Assembly (NCBI RefSeq): GCF_008014745.1
Contig: NZ_VPFD01000017.1
Span: 1-64,000, forward strand
Source of the DNA: Massilia arenae
GTDB taxonomy: Bacteria > Pseudomonadota > Gammaproteobacteria > Burkholderiales > Burkholderiaceae_D
Direction: 5' to 3'
Length of the DNA: 64,000 nucleotides
Shown: piece by piece, positions 33,343 through 39,158 of the stretch
Position numbering within the stretch: position 1 is the first letter of the stretch
Layout: each line of letters opens with the position of its first letter
Position numbers and translations under genes: made by a program
Notes under the pieces: model-generated
Told to the model about the DNA's origin: nothing
What the model saw: only the letters and a program-made list of their open reading frames with translations
The model's database searches: none

Positions 33343-34266
33343 CTACAGCGACTTGCCTCCGGCCGCCTCCGGCTGCAGGGTCACGTGATCGATGCCGTGG
33401 CGCTCGCGCAGCATGGCGCGCACCGCTTCCAGCACCGGCGGCCATTCTTCCAGGCTGCGGATCTCGATGTGGCCGATCAGGGCCGGGTGGCCCGGCGACA
33501 TATCCCACACGTGCATATCGTGCACGGCCAGCACGCCGTCGACGGCCGCCATGTCGGCGCCGACCTGCACGTAGTCGATCGCATGCGGCACGCCTTCCAT
33601 CAGGAAGTGGTACGACTCCCGCAAGATGCCGCTGGTCGAGCGCAGGATCAAGAGGGCAACGAAGATCGACAGGATCGGGTCGGCCTGCAACCATCCGGTG
33701 ATATAGATGATGGCGCCGGAGGCGATCGCCGCCAGCGAGCCCAGCAGGTCGCCCATGACATTGACCAGGGCGGCGCGGGTATTGATGCTGTCGTTGTTAC
33801 GGGAAAGAATCCAGGCCACCAGCAGGTTGATCGAGGCGCCCAGGGCCGCGACCACCAGCACGATGCCGCCTTGCACGTGCTCGGGATGAAGCAGGCGCTG
33901 CACGGCCTCGTAGCCGATCCAGGCCACCAGGCCCAGCATCGCCAGGCAGTTGACGAAGGCGGCCAGCGCCTCGGCGCGCACGAATCCGAAGGAGTGGCGG
34001 GCCGACGGCGGGCGCTTGGCGATCAGTTGGGCCAGCAGGGCCAGGCCGAGGGCGGCGGCGTCGGTCACCATATGGCCGGCGTCCGAGATCAGGGCCAGTG
34101 AATTGGAGATGAAGCCGGTGATGACTTCGACCACGGCGAACAGCAGGGTCAGGCCGAGCGCGACCGCCAGCGCCTTCTGGCTGCGCGCCTCGATCGAGTG
34201 CGAATGGCTGGCGTCGCCGTCCAGGTGGGCGTGCAGGTGGGAAGGGTCGAGCTGTTTCAAGTTCAT
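33343..34266 (-). CDS. Cation diffusion facilitator (zinc-type) exporter
   Basis: A 307-residue CDF protein with six membrane helices and a C-terminal cytoplasmic domain (about 215-307). The N terminus is His-rich (HLHAHLDGDASHSHS). Helix 2 carries the metal site SDAGHMVTDA, with the D-x3-(H)-x3-D arrangement typical of zinc exporters such as CzcD/ZitB. It should export Zn2+ (possibly Co2+ or Cd2+) in exchange for protons. The ATG at 34266 is preferred to a more distal codon. No metal regulator gene is adjacent. Confidence 0.88.
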   Translation of the reverse strand: MNLKQLDPSHLHAHLDGDASHSHSIEARSQKALAVALGLTLLFAVVEVITGFISNSLALISDAGHMVTDAAALGLALLAQLIAKRPPSARHSFGFVRAEALAAFVNCLAMLGLVAWIGYEAVQRLLHPEHVQGGIVLVVAALGASINLLVAWILSRNNDSINTRAALVNVMGDLLGSLAAIASGAIIYITGWLQADPILSIFVALLILRSTSGILRESYHFLMEGVPHAIDYVQVGADMAAVDGVLAVHDMHVWDMSPGHPALIGHIEIRSLEEWPPVLEAVRAMLRERHGIDHVTLQPEAAGGKSL

Positions 34267-34360
34267 CGCAAGAAGTAAATATGGGCCTGGTGTCGAAGTG
34301 TAAAGCATCCTGCGCCGCAGGGCGTGGGCGGACTCCGCGGCAACTATTTCCGTGCGAGGG

Positions 34361-34389
34361 TTGCGGTTCCGCGACGCGGTCCCTATAAT
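34361..34389 (+). promoter_or_regulatory. Sigma-70 promoter of tRNA-Val (and probably thrS)
   Basis: TTGCGG (34361-34366) and a consensus TATAAT (34384-34389) are separated by 17 nt. Transcription would begin at about the first base of the tRNA, 10 nt downstream of the -10 element. Confidence 0.85.
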
Positions 34390-34398
34390 GGCGGCATC

Positions 34399-34475
34399 GG
34401 GCGGTTAGTTCAGCTGGTTAGAATACTTGGTCGACATCCAAGGGGTCGCAGATTCGAATTCTGCACCGCCCACCA
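34399..34475 (+). tRNA. tRNA-Val (anticodon GAC), CCA encoded
   Basis: The 77-nt sequence folds as a full cloverleaf: acceptor GGGCGGT/ACCGCCC, D-arm GTTC/GAAT, anticodon arm CTTGG/CCAAG, T-arm GCAGA/TCTGC with TTCGAAT loop, and CCA encoded. The 7-nt anticodon loop reads TCGACAT, giving anticodon GAC. Position 33 is C instead of the nearly universal U. The D-stem is weak (G-U plus two A-U pairs). It lies upstream of thrS and may be cotranscribed with it. Confidence 0.92.
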
Positions 34476-34510
34476 GTACACATGTAAGAGCGAGAAAGGC
34501 ATCAACGGTT

Positions 34511-34552
34511 ATGACACCGCGAACTACAACCTGGTTGTGGGGGAATCGCTAG
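34511..34552 (+). CDS. Candidate threonine-rich leader peptide of thrS
   Basis: A 13-codon frame reads [13 protein letters not shown] and stops at TAG (34550-34552). Four of 13 residues are Thr, three of them consecutive, and GAAAGG lies about 11 nt upstream as a ribosome site. It sits between tRNA-Val and thrS, 38 nt before an intrinsic terminator. This is the arrangement expected of ribosome-mediated attenuation sensing charged tRNA-Thr. The frame is short, so chance cannot be excluded. Confidence 0.55.
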
Positions 34553-34615
34553 ACGCGATGGGGTGTGCTTTTGCTCGACACAACAGAGAAACGCGGCTAG
34601 TGCCGCGTTTTTTTT
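34545..34615 (+). terminator. Attenuator-like terminator and competing hairpins before thrS
   Basis: AACGCGGC (34590-34597) pairs with GCCGCGTT (34602-34609) around TAGT and is followed by a T-run to 34615, a clear intrinsic terminator 67 nt before thrS. Upstream, ATCGC (34545-34549) can pair with GCGAT (34555-34559). The overlapping GACGCG (34552-34557) can instead pair with CGCGTT (34604-34609), the terminator's 3' arm. These mutually exclusive pairings would fit anti-antiterminator, antiterminator and terminator states. The hairpin could also simply end the tRNA transcript. Confidence 0.65.
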
Positions 34616-34682
34616 CGTCTTTTACGTTTTCGTTATCTTTTTGTTTATTTTTCACCGGCGCCTACGCCAATTGGAGAGCAGC

Positions 34683-36593
34683 ATGCTGAACGTCCGACTT
34701 CCCGATGGCTCGAGCCGTCAATTCGACGGCCCCGTGACGGTGGCCCAGGTAGCGCAGAGTATCGCCCCGAGCCTGGCCAAGGCGGCCCTGGCCGGCAAGG
34801 TCAATGGCAAGGTGGTCGACACCTCGCACCTGATCGACGCCGACGCCGACCTGGCGATCGTGACCGACCGCGATCCGGAAGGCCTGGACGTGATCCGTCA
34901 CTCGACCGCCCACTTGCTGGCCTATGCGGTCAAGGAATTGTTCCCGGAAGCCCAGGTCACCATCGGTCCGGTCATCGAGAACGGCTTTTACTACGACTTC
35001 TCGTACAAGCGCCCGTTCACCCCGGACGACCTGGCCGCCATTGAAAAGAAAATGGTCGAGCTGGCCAAGAAGGACGAGCCGGTCACCCGCAAGGTGCTGC
35101 CGCGCGACGAAGCCGTGACCTACTTCAAGTCGATCGGCGAACACTACAAGGCCGAGATCATCGCCTCGATTCCGGCCAATGAAGACGTGTCGCTGTACAG
35201 CGAAGGCGGCTTCACCGACCTGTGCCGCGGCCCGCACGTGCCGTCGACCGGCAAGATCAAGGTCTTCAAGCTGATGAAGCTGGCCGGCGCCTACTGGCGT
35301 GGCGACTCGAAGAACGAGATGCTGCAGCGCGTGTACGGCACCGCCTGGACCAAGAAGGAAGACCAGGAGCAATACCTGCACATGCTGGAAGAAGCGGAAA
35401 AGCGCGACCACCGCAAGCTCGGCAAGGCGTTGGATCTGTTCCACTTCCAGGAAGAGGCGCCGGGCCTGGTGTTCTGGCATCCGAAGGGCTGGACTGTCTG
35501 GCAACAGGTGGAGCAGTATATGCGCCACAAGTATCAGGTCAGCGGCTATAGCGAAGTCAAGGCCCCGCAGATCCTCGATCGCACCTTGTGGGAAAAGACC
35601 GGTCACTGGGAAAACTACCGTGACAATATGTTCACCACTGAGTCGGAAAACCGCTCGTACGCGCTCAAGCCGATGAACTGCCCGGGTCACGTGCAGATCT
35701 ATAACTCCGGCATGCGCTCCTACCGCGACCTGCCGCTGCGCTTCGGCGAATTCGGCCAGTGCCACCGCAACGAGCCATCCGGCGCGCTGCACGGCCTGAT
35801 GCGCGTGCGCGGCTTCACCCAGGATGATGGTCACATCTTCTGTACCGAAGACCAGGTTGAGCGCGAAGTCACCGAATTCCACGCCCAGGCGATGGGTGTC
35901 TACGACGACTTTGGCTTCACCAATATCGACGTCAAGCTGGCGCTGCGTCCGGATAGCCGCATCGGCTCGGACGAGGTCTGGGACCAGGCCGAAGAATCGC
36001 TGCGTTCGGCGCTGCGCGCCTGCGGCGTGGAGTGGACCGAGTTGCCGGGCGAGGGCGCCTTCTATGGTCCGAAGATCGAATATCACCTGAAGGACAGCCT
36101 GGGTCGTCCATGGCAGGTTGGCACCGTGCAGGTGGACTTCTCGATGCCGGGTCGCCTCGGTTCCGAGTATGTCGCAGAAGACAATACCCGCAAGGTTCCC
36201 GTGATGCTGCACCGCGCGATCGTGGGATCGATGGAGCGCTTCATCGGCATCCTGATCGAAAACTACGCCGGCGCGCTGCCGCTCTGGCTTGCTCCAGTGC
36301 AAGTCGCAGTCCTGAATATTTCGGATGCACAGGCCGATTACGTCAAGCAGGTCGAGGCAAAGCTGCGCGCGGCAGGCCTGCGCGTGCACGCTGATTTGCG
36401 AAACGAGAAGATCACCTATAAAATACGTGAACATTCCGTCCAAAAACTGCCGTATATCCTCGTTGTTGGGGATAAGGAAAAGGACGCGAACACAGTGGCT
36501 GTGCGAGCCCGCGGTAATGTCGATCTGGGTGTGATGCCCATCGACACGCTCGTGGAGCGTCTGGTTGGCGAAGTTGCCGCCAAGACGAAATAA
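34683..36593 (+). CDS. thrS: Threonyl-tRNA synthetase
   Basis: A 636-residue class II synthetase that charges tRNA-Thr. An N-terminal TGS domain ([20 protein letters not shown], 1-60) is followed by the editing domain with its H-x3-H site ([12 protein letters not shown]). The catalytic core holds the zinc-binding cysteine in [10 protein letters not shown] (about 335), [20 protein letters not shown] (motif 2) and motif 3 [17 protein letters not shown]. The anticodon-binding domain ends the protein. GGAGAGCAGC precedes the ATG at 34683. A putative Thr-rich leader peptide and terminator lie just upstream. Confidence 0.97.
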
Positions 36594-36628
36594 TCCCGGC
36601 CAATACCAATACATTCAAAGGAAATGAC

Positions 36629-37150
36629 ATAGCTACTGACAAGCAGAATCGCATTAATGGCGAAATCACCCATCCGGAAATGCGTTTGAACGGTGTGGAC
36701 AACGAGCCGCTGGGCATCGTGACCCTGGCCGAAGCGTTCCGTCTGGCCGAAGAAAAGAACGTCGACCTGGTTGAGATCGCGCCAAATGCGGTCCCTCCGG
36801 TTTGCCGCCTGATGGACTACGGCAAGTTCAAGTATTCGGAACAGAAGAAGGCCCACGAAGCCAAGCTCAAGCAGAAGATCATCCAGGTCAAGGAAATCAA
36901 GTTCCGTCCGGGTACCGATGAAGGCGACTACAGCATCAAGCTGCGCAACCTCATCAAATTCCTGGAAGAAGGCGACAAGACCAAGATCACTTTGCGTTTC
37001 CGCGGTCGCGAGATGGCACACCAGGACATCGGCCTGCGCGTGCTTGAGCGCCTGCGCACCGATCTGGAAGCGGTTGGCACGATCGAGCAGTTCCCGAAAC
37101 TCGAAGGCCGCCAGATGGTCATGGTGGTTGCACCGAAGAAGAAGAAGTAA
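36629..37150 (+). CDS. infC: Translation initiation factor IF-3, probable ATA start
   Basis: The protein (173 residues from the proposed start) contains the full IF-3 signature: [39 protein letters not shown], and the C-terminal domain ending VAPKKKK. IF-3 homologues start before the RINGEI motif, but no ATG, GTG or TTG is in frame there. The codon ATA at 36629, with AAAGGA about 6 nt before it, gives [13 protein letters not shown]. This mirrors the AUU start of E. coli infC, by which IF-3 limits its own synthesis. An ATT at 36653 is a less likely alternative, and ATG at 36680 would truncate the conserved N domain. Confidence 0.93.
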
Positions 37151-37191
37151 TTCTTCGAGCGAAGCAGATACACGGCCGGGTCCGTGGTTGG

Positions 37192-37339
37192 GGTGAAAGC
37201 CCTTGCCGTGGCCCGGCTTTCACACGTCCGTGCCCCGCGGGCGGTGTGCGGATCGCCGGATGAGTTGCCGGCGACCATCCTATTCCCCAAAACCTGTGCT
37301 ACAATCTGCGATTCCTGTTTTTAGAAACGGGTTGTAGCA
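37192..37339 (+). promoter_or_regulatory. Leader of rpmI-rplT: hairpins and extended -10 element
   Basis: The 293-nt gap between infC and rpmI has no gene. GTGAAAGCC (37192-37200) pairs with GGCTTTCAC (37214-37222). Further on, TGCTACAA (37297-37304) pairs with TTGTAGCA (37332-37339), enclosing a second hairpin CCTGTTT/AAACGGG. TGCTACAAT at 37297-37305 also reads as an extended -10 promoter element. In E. coli, L20 binds a structured leader here to repress rpmI-rplT; a similar role is plausible but unproven. Confidence 0.4.
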
Positions 37340-37443
37340 GACTCGCTTCTGCTGCAAGACAAGTGAAAGTAGGCATCCAAGAGCAGCGTTGCTGCCACCT
37401 GCAATCCTGTCCCATATGAGGCTGTCCGCGAGGACAGATGACT

Positions 37444-37641
37444 ATGCCAAAAATGAAAACCAAGAGCTCCGCGAAGAAACGTTTTCGCGTGCGTCCGGGC
37501 GGTACCGTCAAGTCGGGCATGGCGTTCAAGCGCCACATCCTGACCAAGAAGACCACCAAGAACAAGCGCCAACTGCGCGGCACCCGTAACATCAATGCGT
37601 CGGACGTGACTAGCGTTCTGCGTATGATGCCGTCTGCTTAA
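37444..37641 (+). CDS. rpmI: 50S ribosomal protein L35
   Basis: A 65-residue basic protein starting [20 protein letters not shown], the hallmark of bL35, and ending [21 protein letters not shown]. The ATG at 37444 is preferred to the one at 37438 because GAGGAC is correctly spaced for it. It sits between infC and rplT in the conserved order. Confidence 0.96.
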
Positions 37642-37661
37642 TCTCACACTAAGGAGCTAAC

Positions 37662-38021
37662 ATGCCTAGAGTTAAACGTGGGGTTACTGCACGTGCCCGT
37701 CATAAGAAAGTCCTTGATCTTGCCAAAGGCTACCGTGGTCGCCGCAGCAAGGTATACCGTGTTGCCAAGCAAGCAGTCATGCGCGCTGGCCAGTATGCCT
37801 ACCGCGATCGCCGCAACAAGAAGCGCGTCTTCCGCGCACTGTGGATCACCCGTATCAACGCGGCTTCGCGTTCGCACGGCATGACCTACAGCGCCTTCAT
37901 GAACGGCCTGAAAAAGTCCGCGATTGAACTGGACCGTAAAGTCCTGGCCGACATGGCTGTGCATGACAAGCCGGCATTCGCCGCGATCGTCAGCGCCGTC
38001 AAGGCCAAGCTGGCTGCTTAA
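37662..38021 (+). CDS. rplT: 50S ribosomal protein L20
   Basis: A 119-residue bL20 protein: [36 protein letters not shown] (split), a long basic N-terminal helix, then the globular C-terminal domain with [22 protein letters not shown]. It binds 23S rRNA early in 50S assembly and, in other bacteria, represses its own operon through the mRNA leader. AAGGAG precedes the ATG. Confidence 0.97.
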
Positions 38022-38040
38022 TTCAGTCTGCTAGCAAGAA

Positions 38041-38100
38041 GCGCCATAGCGATATGGCGCACTAGAAGCGGGGCAAGGTTCACACCTGTGCCCCGTTTTT
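38041..38100 (+). terminator. Two hairpins with terminator between rplT and pheS
   Basis: GCGCCATA/TATGGCGC (38041-38048, 38053-38060) is a perfect 8-bp hairpin. CGGGGCA/TGCCCCG (38069-38075, 38089-38095) with an inner AGGT/ACCT extension is followed by five T residues (38096-38100). The second is an intrinsic terminator. No Phe-rich leader frame like E. coli pheM accompanies it, so regulation of pheST by that mechanism is not supported. Confidence 0.75.
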
Positions 38101-38102
38101 GA

Positions 38103-39158
<1,056 letters not shown>

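Follow-up and report, generated by a model that had tools for sequence, protein, structure and literature searches.

The interval between a tRNA-Val gene and thrS in the 64,000-nucleotide stretch of Massilia arenae contig NZ_VPFD01000017.1 analysed here (the window) is very probably a ribosome-mediated transcription attenuator, which couples expression of thrS, the gene for threonine--tRNA ligase, to the charging of tRNA-Thr. The anatomy of this interval, its conservation and its placement before thrS are established, and mutually exclusive RNA structures are found in calculation. The conservation in many relatives suggests that slow threonine decoding turns thrS on.

Architecture of the thrS leader region

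The interval and its neighbours comprise the following features, all on the forward strand (P1 is a predicted long-range helix; strands 2 and 3 are the two sides of the predicted antiterminator).

34361..34389 (+): probable promoter of tRNA-Val and, via read-through, of thrS (TTGCGG-N17-TATAAT), proposed from reading the sequence and absent from the consensus scan list
34399..34475 (+): tRNA-Val(gac), the upstream neighbour, probably co-transcribed (ARAGORN; Rfam tRNA, 62 bits)
34488..34503 (+): 5' strand of P1, which is the leader ribosome-binding region (GAGCGAGAAAGGC...), with its partner at 34562-34576 (minimum free energy fold of the free RNA; tested in 131 distinct leaders)
34511..34552 (+): 13-codon leader peptide ORF, ATG...TAG, with the stop codon UAG at 34550-34552
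34514-34516, 34523-34525, 34526-34528 and 34529-34531 (+): Thr codons of the leader
34520-34522 (+): Arg codon CGA of the leader
34524..34540 (+): hairpin A, 7 bp, -5.1 kcal/mol, over the Thr codons, a candidate pause hairpin (folding)
34545..34559 (+): hairpin B, ATCGC (34545-34549)/GCGAT (34555-34559), -4.5 kcal/mol, over the stop codon and competing with the antiterminator (folding)
34547..34557 (+): antiterminator strand 2 (CGCUAGACGCG), overlapping the leader stop codon (folding, duplex energies)
34562..34576 (+): 3' strand of P1 (...CUUUUGCUC), between strand 2 and the terminator (folding, P1 pairing tests)
34587..34615 (+): intrinsic terminator, stem -16.9 kcal/mol, U-tract 34608-34615 (the terminator scan lists 34585-34614)
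34592..34602 (+): antiterminator strand 3, the 5' arm and loop of the terminator (CGCGGCUAGUG; folding, duplex energies)
34683..36593 (+): thrS, threonine--tRNA ligase, the controlled gene, with its ATG at 34683 (NCBIfam TIGR00418 equivalog, 734 bits against a cutoff of 384)

The initial annotation had marked here the upstream ORF, the ATCGC/GCGAT stem, GACGCG (34552-34557), CGCGTT (34604-34609) and the terminator, each of which is present exactly where it had been placed; it had counted three Thr codons in the leader, which has four (codons 2, 5, 6 and 7). The ORF is preceded by an SD-like AAGG (34496-34499) at the long spacing of 11 nt before the leader ATG, and at the search cutoff applied the assembly has thrS once. 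The 150 nt 3' of tRNA-Val fold better than dinucleotide shuffles of the same stretch (z -2.77; 2/200 as good). Directly before the SD sequence of thrS itself lies a short GC hairpin (GGCG-CCTA-CGCC, 34657-34668).

Threonine codons and distribution of the leader ORF

A short ORF before thrS with at least three Thr in five residues is present in all 24 same-genus loci including the window (shuffle mean 1.05) and in 25 of 28 further family loci, 2 of them same-genus (shuffles 0.25). In a sample of the whole order, 31 of 132 upstream regions contain such an ORF (Thr in shuffles: mean 1.3, maximum 4), spread over 14 of the 48 families represented; the other 18 of the 150 genomes sampled, with which three families were lost, did not contribute: 2 had no ThrS match, 4 carry partial genes, in 2 the locus lies at a contig end, and 10 are among the most distant by score. 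By the same run criterion, Thr stands at the top of the 20 amino acids in this sample, followed by Phe with 14. Thr-run ORFs are absent from all 28 loci of other orders examined, chosen as the nearest in ThrS score from the 174 class genomes (of 185) that had a match, and from the 29th locus of that set (L303), which belongs to the order of the window.

In the 24 same-genus loci the leader reads MTPRTTT or MTPRTTM, residue 8 varies, and the end of the peptide is nearly fixed. Between lineages the peptides diverge (MSFRTTTTGTLNLG, MFRTCTTTWC, MFKRTTTTRISR, MQLNRTTTTS and MVPPTTTLGAFTA), so that the Thr run is kept while the remainder is not. Insertions and deletions within the ORF come in steps of three bases in the family alignment, an indirect sign that it may be translated, and the leader and terminator share an identity of 0.82 among the 24 same-genus loci, compared with 0.24 in the upstream flank and 0.51 in the downstream flank. 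Several leaders of named genomes keep three Thr codons only (MTPRTTP...), and ATGACACCGC, the start of the family leader, is found in 10 of the 101 order regions scored negative by the strict criterion; these ten look like leaders with fewer Thr codons. One family locus, L182, has no recognisable Thr leader. A record titled uncultured Alphaproteobacteria (L188) carries a Thr leader of the Burkholderiales type and a ThrS 63% identical to that of the window, and is possibly a mislabelled bin.

The Thr codons of the leaders are mostly rare ones: in 72 leaders picked without the pattern, ACT and ACA account for 180 of the 288 Thr codons, compared with about 10% in 35 ORFs of the window. In the same 72 leaders, many of which are close relatives, CGA stands immediately 5' of the Thr codon in 67 of 69 Arg-Thr pairs. 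The pair CGA-ACT (34520-34525 in the window) also recurs in unlike Thr leaders, namely in 12 of 18 Arg-Thr pairs from 21 non-MTPR leaders; this recurrence suggests that either slow decoding or the RNA motif CGAACU is under selection.

Of 116 family genomes, 91 contain a single place that reaches 49.7 bits or more with R1, a covariance model built for the leader element, and some match at E <=0.01 occurs in 109 of the 116, the weak ones being mostly chance. All 75 strong matches with a known position of thrS lie 13-162 nt (median 64) upstream of that gene on the same strand, 25 of these 75 loci having supplied sequences to the model. A leader pattern was found in at least 119 stretches of named genomes, with ThrS 120-306 nt after the leader ATG in 116 of the 119 listed, while in the remaining three the sequence ends within 47-351 nt of the pattern. 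This pattern fixes MTPxTT, and the loci selected by it are thus no independent evidence for those codons; 77 of these at least 119 loci were used in the terminator, antiterminator, P1 and set-wide fold tests. The comparison of relatives that the initial annotation had proposed supports its assignment of the interval as a Thr leader attenuator for thrS: start codon, Thr codons, stop region and terminator are conserved as a set in the genus and in most of the family.

Terminator and predicted antiterminator

The terminator is recognised by a hairpin finder in 146 of 155 leaders, and some of the nine finder-negative leaders have one by eye (L094, L167). It covaries, with 98.6% of cells paired and GC/CG exchange of 28/17 in 45 sequences. 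The tetranucleotide CGTC directly after the U-tract (34616-34619) is common to many family leaders and lies beyond the expected end of the terminated RNA.

Strand 2 (CGCUAGACGCG, 34547-34557) can form ten pairs with strand 3 (CGCGGCUAGUG, 34592-34602) with one mismatch (-13.0 kcal/mol). The initial annotation had instead paired GACGCG with the 3' arm of the terminator, a duplex of -8.5 to -8.7 kcal/mol which was rejected as the antiterminator because the pairing with the 5' arm and loop is stronger. It had also supposed that a stalled ribosome masks ATCGC; with the footprint assumed here (P-site -15 to +15, counted from the first base of the P-site codon), a ribosome at codon 7 reaches about 34541 and leaves ATCGC (34545-34549) uncovered. 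The antiterminator belongs to the minimum free energy structure of the nascent RNA when a ribosome occupies the Thr codons. For a nascent transcript that stops at 34602, the antiterminator pairs have a mean probability of 0.70, 0.86 and 0.93 when Thr codons 5, 6 and 7, respectively, occupy the A-site, against 0.00 with the ribosome at the stop codon and 0.03 without a ribosome. The calculation for the window thus gives an antiterminator which excludes the terminator, is exposed by the stall and is covered at the stop codon. From 34606 onwards, equilibrium folding gives the terminator a probability of 1.00 wherever the ribosome stands; the switch therefore has to operate kinetically, as in known attenuators.

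The effect is weaker across the whole set: over 136 leaders, sequestration of strand 3 is 0.55 in the stalled state and 0.33 at the stop codon, and is higher in the stalled state in 119 of them; leaders with shuffled spacers give 0.54 and 0.51 (Wilcoxon 1.5e-14). The difference between the two states is therefore 0.22 compared with 0.03 in shuffles, and exceeds 0.3 in 48 of the 136 leaders. Sequestration in the stalled state is no greater than in shuffled spacers, and only the difference between stall and stop stands out; the special feature is the position of the complement beside the stop codon, not the total strength of pairing.

The antiterminator duplex is better than its shuffles in 115 of 126 leaders (Wilcoxon 2e-20, relatedness not removed), reaching p <=0.05 in 14 of 18 loci from other genera of the family; a Fisher test over 21 loci of 12 other families, treated as independent, gives p 1.4e-6. 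Within the genus alone the duplex is unremarkable against shuffles (median p 0.14). Own strands average -14.9 compared with -12.9 for strands taken from other loci, whose segments perform as well as the own partner in 0.31 of cases on average. In the family alignment the antiterminator is 88% kept, shows no two-sided change and has a covariation score no better than shuffles. The clearest sign of constraint at the RNA level comes from the Duganella- and Janthinobacterium-type leaders, in which the stop codon is a TGA six bases earlier and CGCTAGTCG and its partner are nevertheless kept. Hairpin A gained no support as a covarying element, since shuffles of the family alignment give pair counts that are as good. 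Two loci with spacers above 70 nt (L162 and L221) were dropped from the antiterminator, P1 and set-wide fold tests, and duplicates were removed each time.

A predicted long-range helix over the leader ribosome-binding site

In P1 the ribosome-binding segment of the leader (34488-34503) pairs with the segment just before the terminator (34562-34576). The helix recurs with unrelated sequences, such as AUCAAGCUC x GAGCUUGAU (L045), GUCAAGCCCA x UGGGCUUGAU (L083), GAGUAAACGAA x UUCGUUUAUUC (L058) and AUCAAACUC x GAGUUUGAU (L133), and is also found in L079, L093, L116, L135 and L148. Among 131 distinct leaders (L183, which has a short 5' end, was dropped), own pairs average -16.9 compared with -13.2 for shuffles and -14.4 for segments of other loci; the Wilcoxon value against shuffles is 1.4e-17 with relatedness not removed, and the segments of other loci perform as well as the own partner in 0.30 of cases on average. 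Values of p <=0.05 were obtained in 14 of 22 loci of the genus, 12 of 20 of other family genera and 11 of 21 from 12 other families (Fisher p 1.7e-9, the 21 loci being taken as independent), while the signal is weak in the pattern-selected leaders (14 of 66). As the linear order is SD, strand 2, 3' strand of P1 and strand 3, the two helices cross, and P1 and the antiterminator are mutually exclusive unless they form a pseudoknot. From this model we infer that P1 may make termination the default when the leader is not translated, and may limit repeat translation of the leader.

Alternative explanations

The hairpin could simply be the terminator of tRNA-Val, with thrS transcribed from its own downstream promoter and the ORF being incidental. 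The tRNA gene does lie immediately upstream, and tRNA-Val precedes thrS in 18 of the 28 loci of other orders, none of which has a Thr-run ORF. Where order regions lack a strict Thr-run ORF, a terminator-like hairpin occurs in 61 of 101, compared with 26 of the 31 that have such an ORF, which slightly raises this explanation, and the same-family genome L035 (2.2 Mb) has a tRNA-Val–thrS interval of 97 nt that keeps the terminator (AAAACGCGGCTAGCCGCGTTTTTTTT) and has no leader ORF. The initial annotation had named a terminator retained in relatives without the Thr codons as evidence against a leader; this arrangement is seen in L035, L182 and those 61 order regions, and is not seen in the genus, where Thr codons, frame and stop region are kept together with the terminator and the DNA after the terminator is less conserved (0.51 vs 0.82). 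The leader moreover occurs at loci with no tRNA-Val detected within 1.5 kb upstream of thrS (L031, L040, L166, L172 and L178) and at loci with a tRNA-Val more than 1.2 kb away on that side (L179 and L181), and no promoter-like site was detected in 34201-35000 by a weak scan, which also misses the likely tRNA promoter. A plain tRNA terminator is thus highly improbable as the explanation, and we read the arrangements in relatives as those of a leader that may have arisen on an older tRNA-Val terminator or may have been lost from one.

Two further explanations accept a regulatory role of the region. If ThrRS bound the leader or the ribosome site of thrS and repressed translation, as is known from E. 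coli, the upstream ORF would be secondary; a hairpin with at least 4 GC pairs does stand just before the thrS SD sequence in 20 of 24 same-genus loci, with changing loops (mean 4.0 vs 1.9 in mononucleotide shuffles), but no Rfam match was obtained near the thrS ribosome site and no loop resembling the tRNA-Thr anticodon was noticed by eye. As the main explanation this is very unlikely; the short GC hairpin leaves room for a second layer of control. Slightly less unlikely, although still improbable, is a general translation-stress ORF, in which drug-induced stalling or slow decoding of CGA and ACU, rather than threonine supply, drives read-through. The prevalence of CGA directly before Thr (67 of 69 pairs, with many close relatives) and the named leaders with three Thr codons only would agree with such a sensor, whereas the prominence of Thr among all 20 amino acids and the identity of the controlled gene as a Thr enzyme argue for threonine itself as the signal.

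Proposed mechanism

In the attenuator proposed here, transcription would start before or near tRNA-Val, probably at the TATAAT element preceding it. With ample charged tRNA-Thr, the leading ribosome would translate the leader ORF as far as its stop codon and cover strand 2 (34547-34557), allowing the terminator to fold and to stop transcription near 34615. Under a shortage of charged tRNA-Thr, the ribosome would halt on codons 5-7 and leave strand 2 free, which could then capture 34592-34602 before the 3' arm of the terminator is made, and the polymerase would continue into thrS; the stall would also remove the hairpin at 34524-34540 and disfavour P1. On transcripts whose leader is not translated, P1 together with hairpins A and B would keep strand 2 from strand 3, and termination would be the default.

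It is possible, if on the whole rather doubtful, that this amounts to a three-state attenuator peculiar to Burkholderiales between tRNA-Val and thrS, in which P1 hides the leader ribosome site and blocks the antiterminator, so that transcripts without a translated leader terminate. For the polymerase to reach thrS, ribosomes would then have to load on the leader and charged tRNA-Thr would have to be short; the CGA-ACU pair would time the ribosome, and the leader may replace the ThrRS operator used in E. coli.

If the attenuator is confirmed, many Burkholderiales, including soil, plant-associated and industrial genera, would rely on a leader peptide between a tRNA gene and the synthetase gene to sense threonyl-tRNA, and not on a synthetase that represses its own translation. 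The relatives form a series (leader present, stop codon moved, tRNA-Val gone, and leader absent with the terminator left) which may show how attenuators are built, rewired and discarded.

Comparison with known systems

No T-box was matched in 34000-38500 at E up to 1, and Rfam 15 gave in the same range and threshold the tRNA-Val and a chance-level snoRNA inside thrS (E 0.96), with no leader family; ten related loci searched at the gathering score gave tRNA only. Assignment of the leader to the T-box or another Rfam-listed family was thus rejected.

The trp, his, thr, leu, ilv and pheA leaders of enterobacteria are ribosome-mediated attenuators, with which the thrS leader shares an ORF with a run of the relevant codon, mutually exclusive terminator and antiterminator, and a stop codon beside strand 2. 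Unlike these, it acts on an aminoacyl-tRNA synthetase gene that follows a tRNA gene, its strand 2 overlaps the stop codon, and a long-range helix covers the leader ribosome site; a similar masking of the leader ribosome site has been described for the E. coli trp leader. The E. coli pheST attenuator, with its pheM leader, is a synthetase operon attenuated by its own amino acid, and resembles the thrS leader in being leader-peptide attenuation of a synthetase gene, with Phe there and Thr here. The window itself contains a GC-rich hairpin followed by a T-tract (GGGGCAAGGTTCACACCTGTGCCCCGTTTTTG, 38070-38101) between rplT and pheS, and no obvious Phe-rich leader was seen before pheS by eye.

Downstream of thrS, infC apparently starts with AUA (36629-36643: AAAGGAAATGAC ATA GCT ACT GAC AAG), and the codon before A-T-D-K of infC is ATA in 26 of 26 same-genus loci. 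In E. coli, infC has an AUU start and is autoregulated by IF3; by analogy, the non-canonical start found here would fit IF3 autoregulation.

For thrS itself, the textbook case is that of E. coli, where ThrRS binds a translational operator and the synthetase represses its own translation. Both systems would provide feedback control of thrS, by protein binding and translation there and by leader-peptide transcription attenuation here.

No description of a Thr leader before thrS in Burkholderiales was found in the full-text literature searched. The 2010 paper of Lopatovskaya et al., which by its title covers attenuation of aminoacyl-tRNA biosynthesis operons, may already predict this leader. The mechanism is classical, and the thrS leader of this order is apparently unrecorded in the literature searched.

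In bacilli, a leader with a His run before the synthetase gene hisS was found by terminator screening (PMC2965389); these leaders differ from the present one in amino acid and phylum, and the main text of that report does not include thrS. In Streptomyces lividans, which belongs to the Actinobacteria, a thrL-thrS candidate is described with a leader peptide (MKRVRPFLETTPGFVPAR) containing two Thr, a leaderless transcript and no U-rich terminator (PMC8079986). It resembles the present system, as far as its description goes, in having a leader peptide before thrS, and this two-Thr candidate is the nearest report found.
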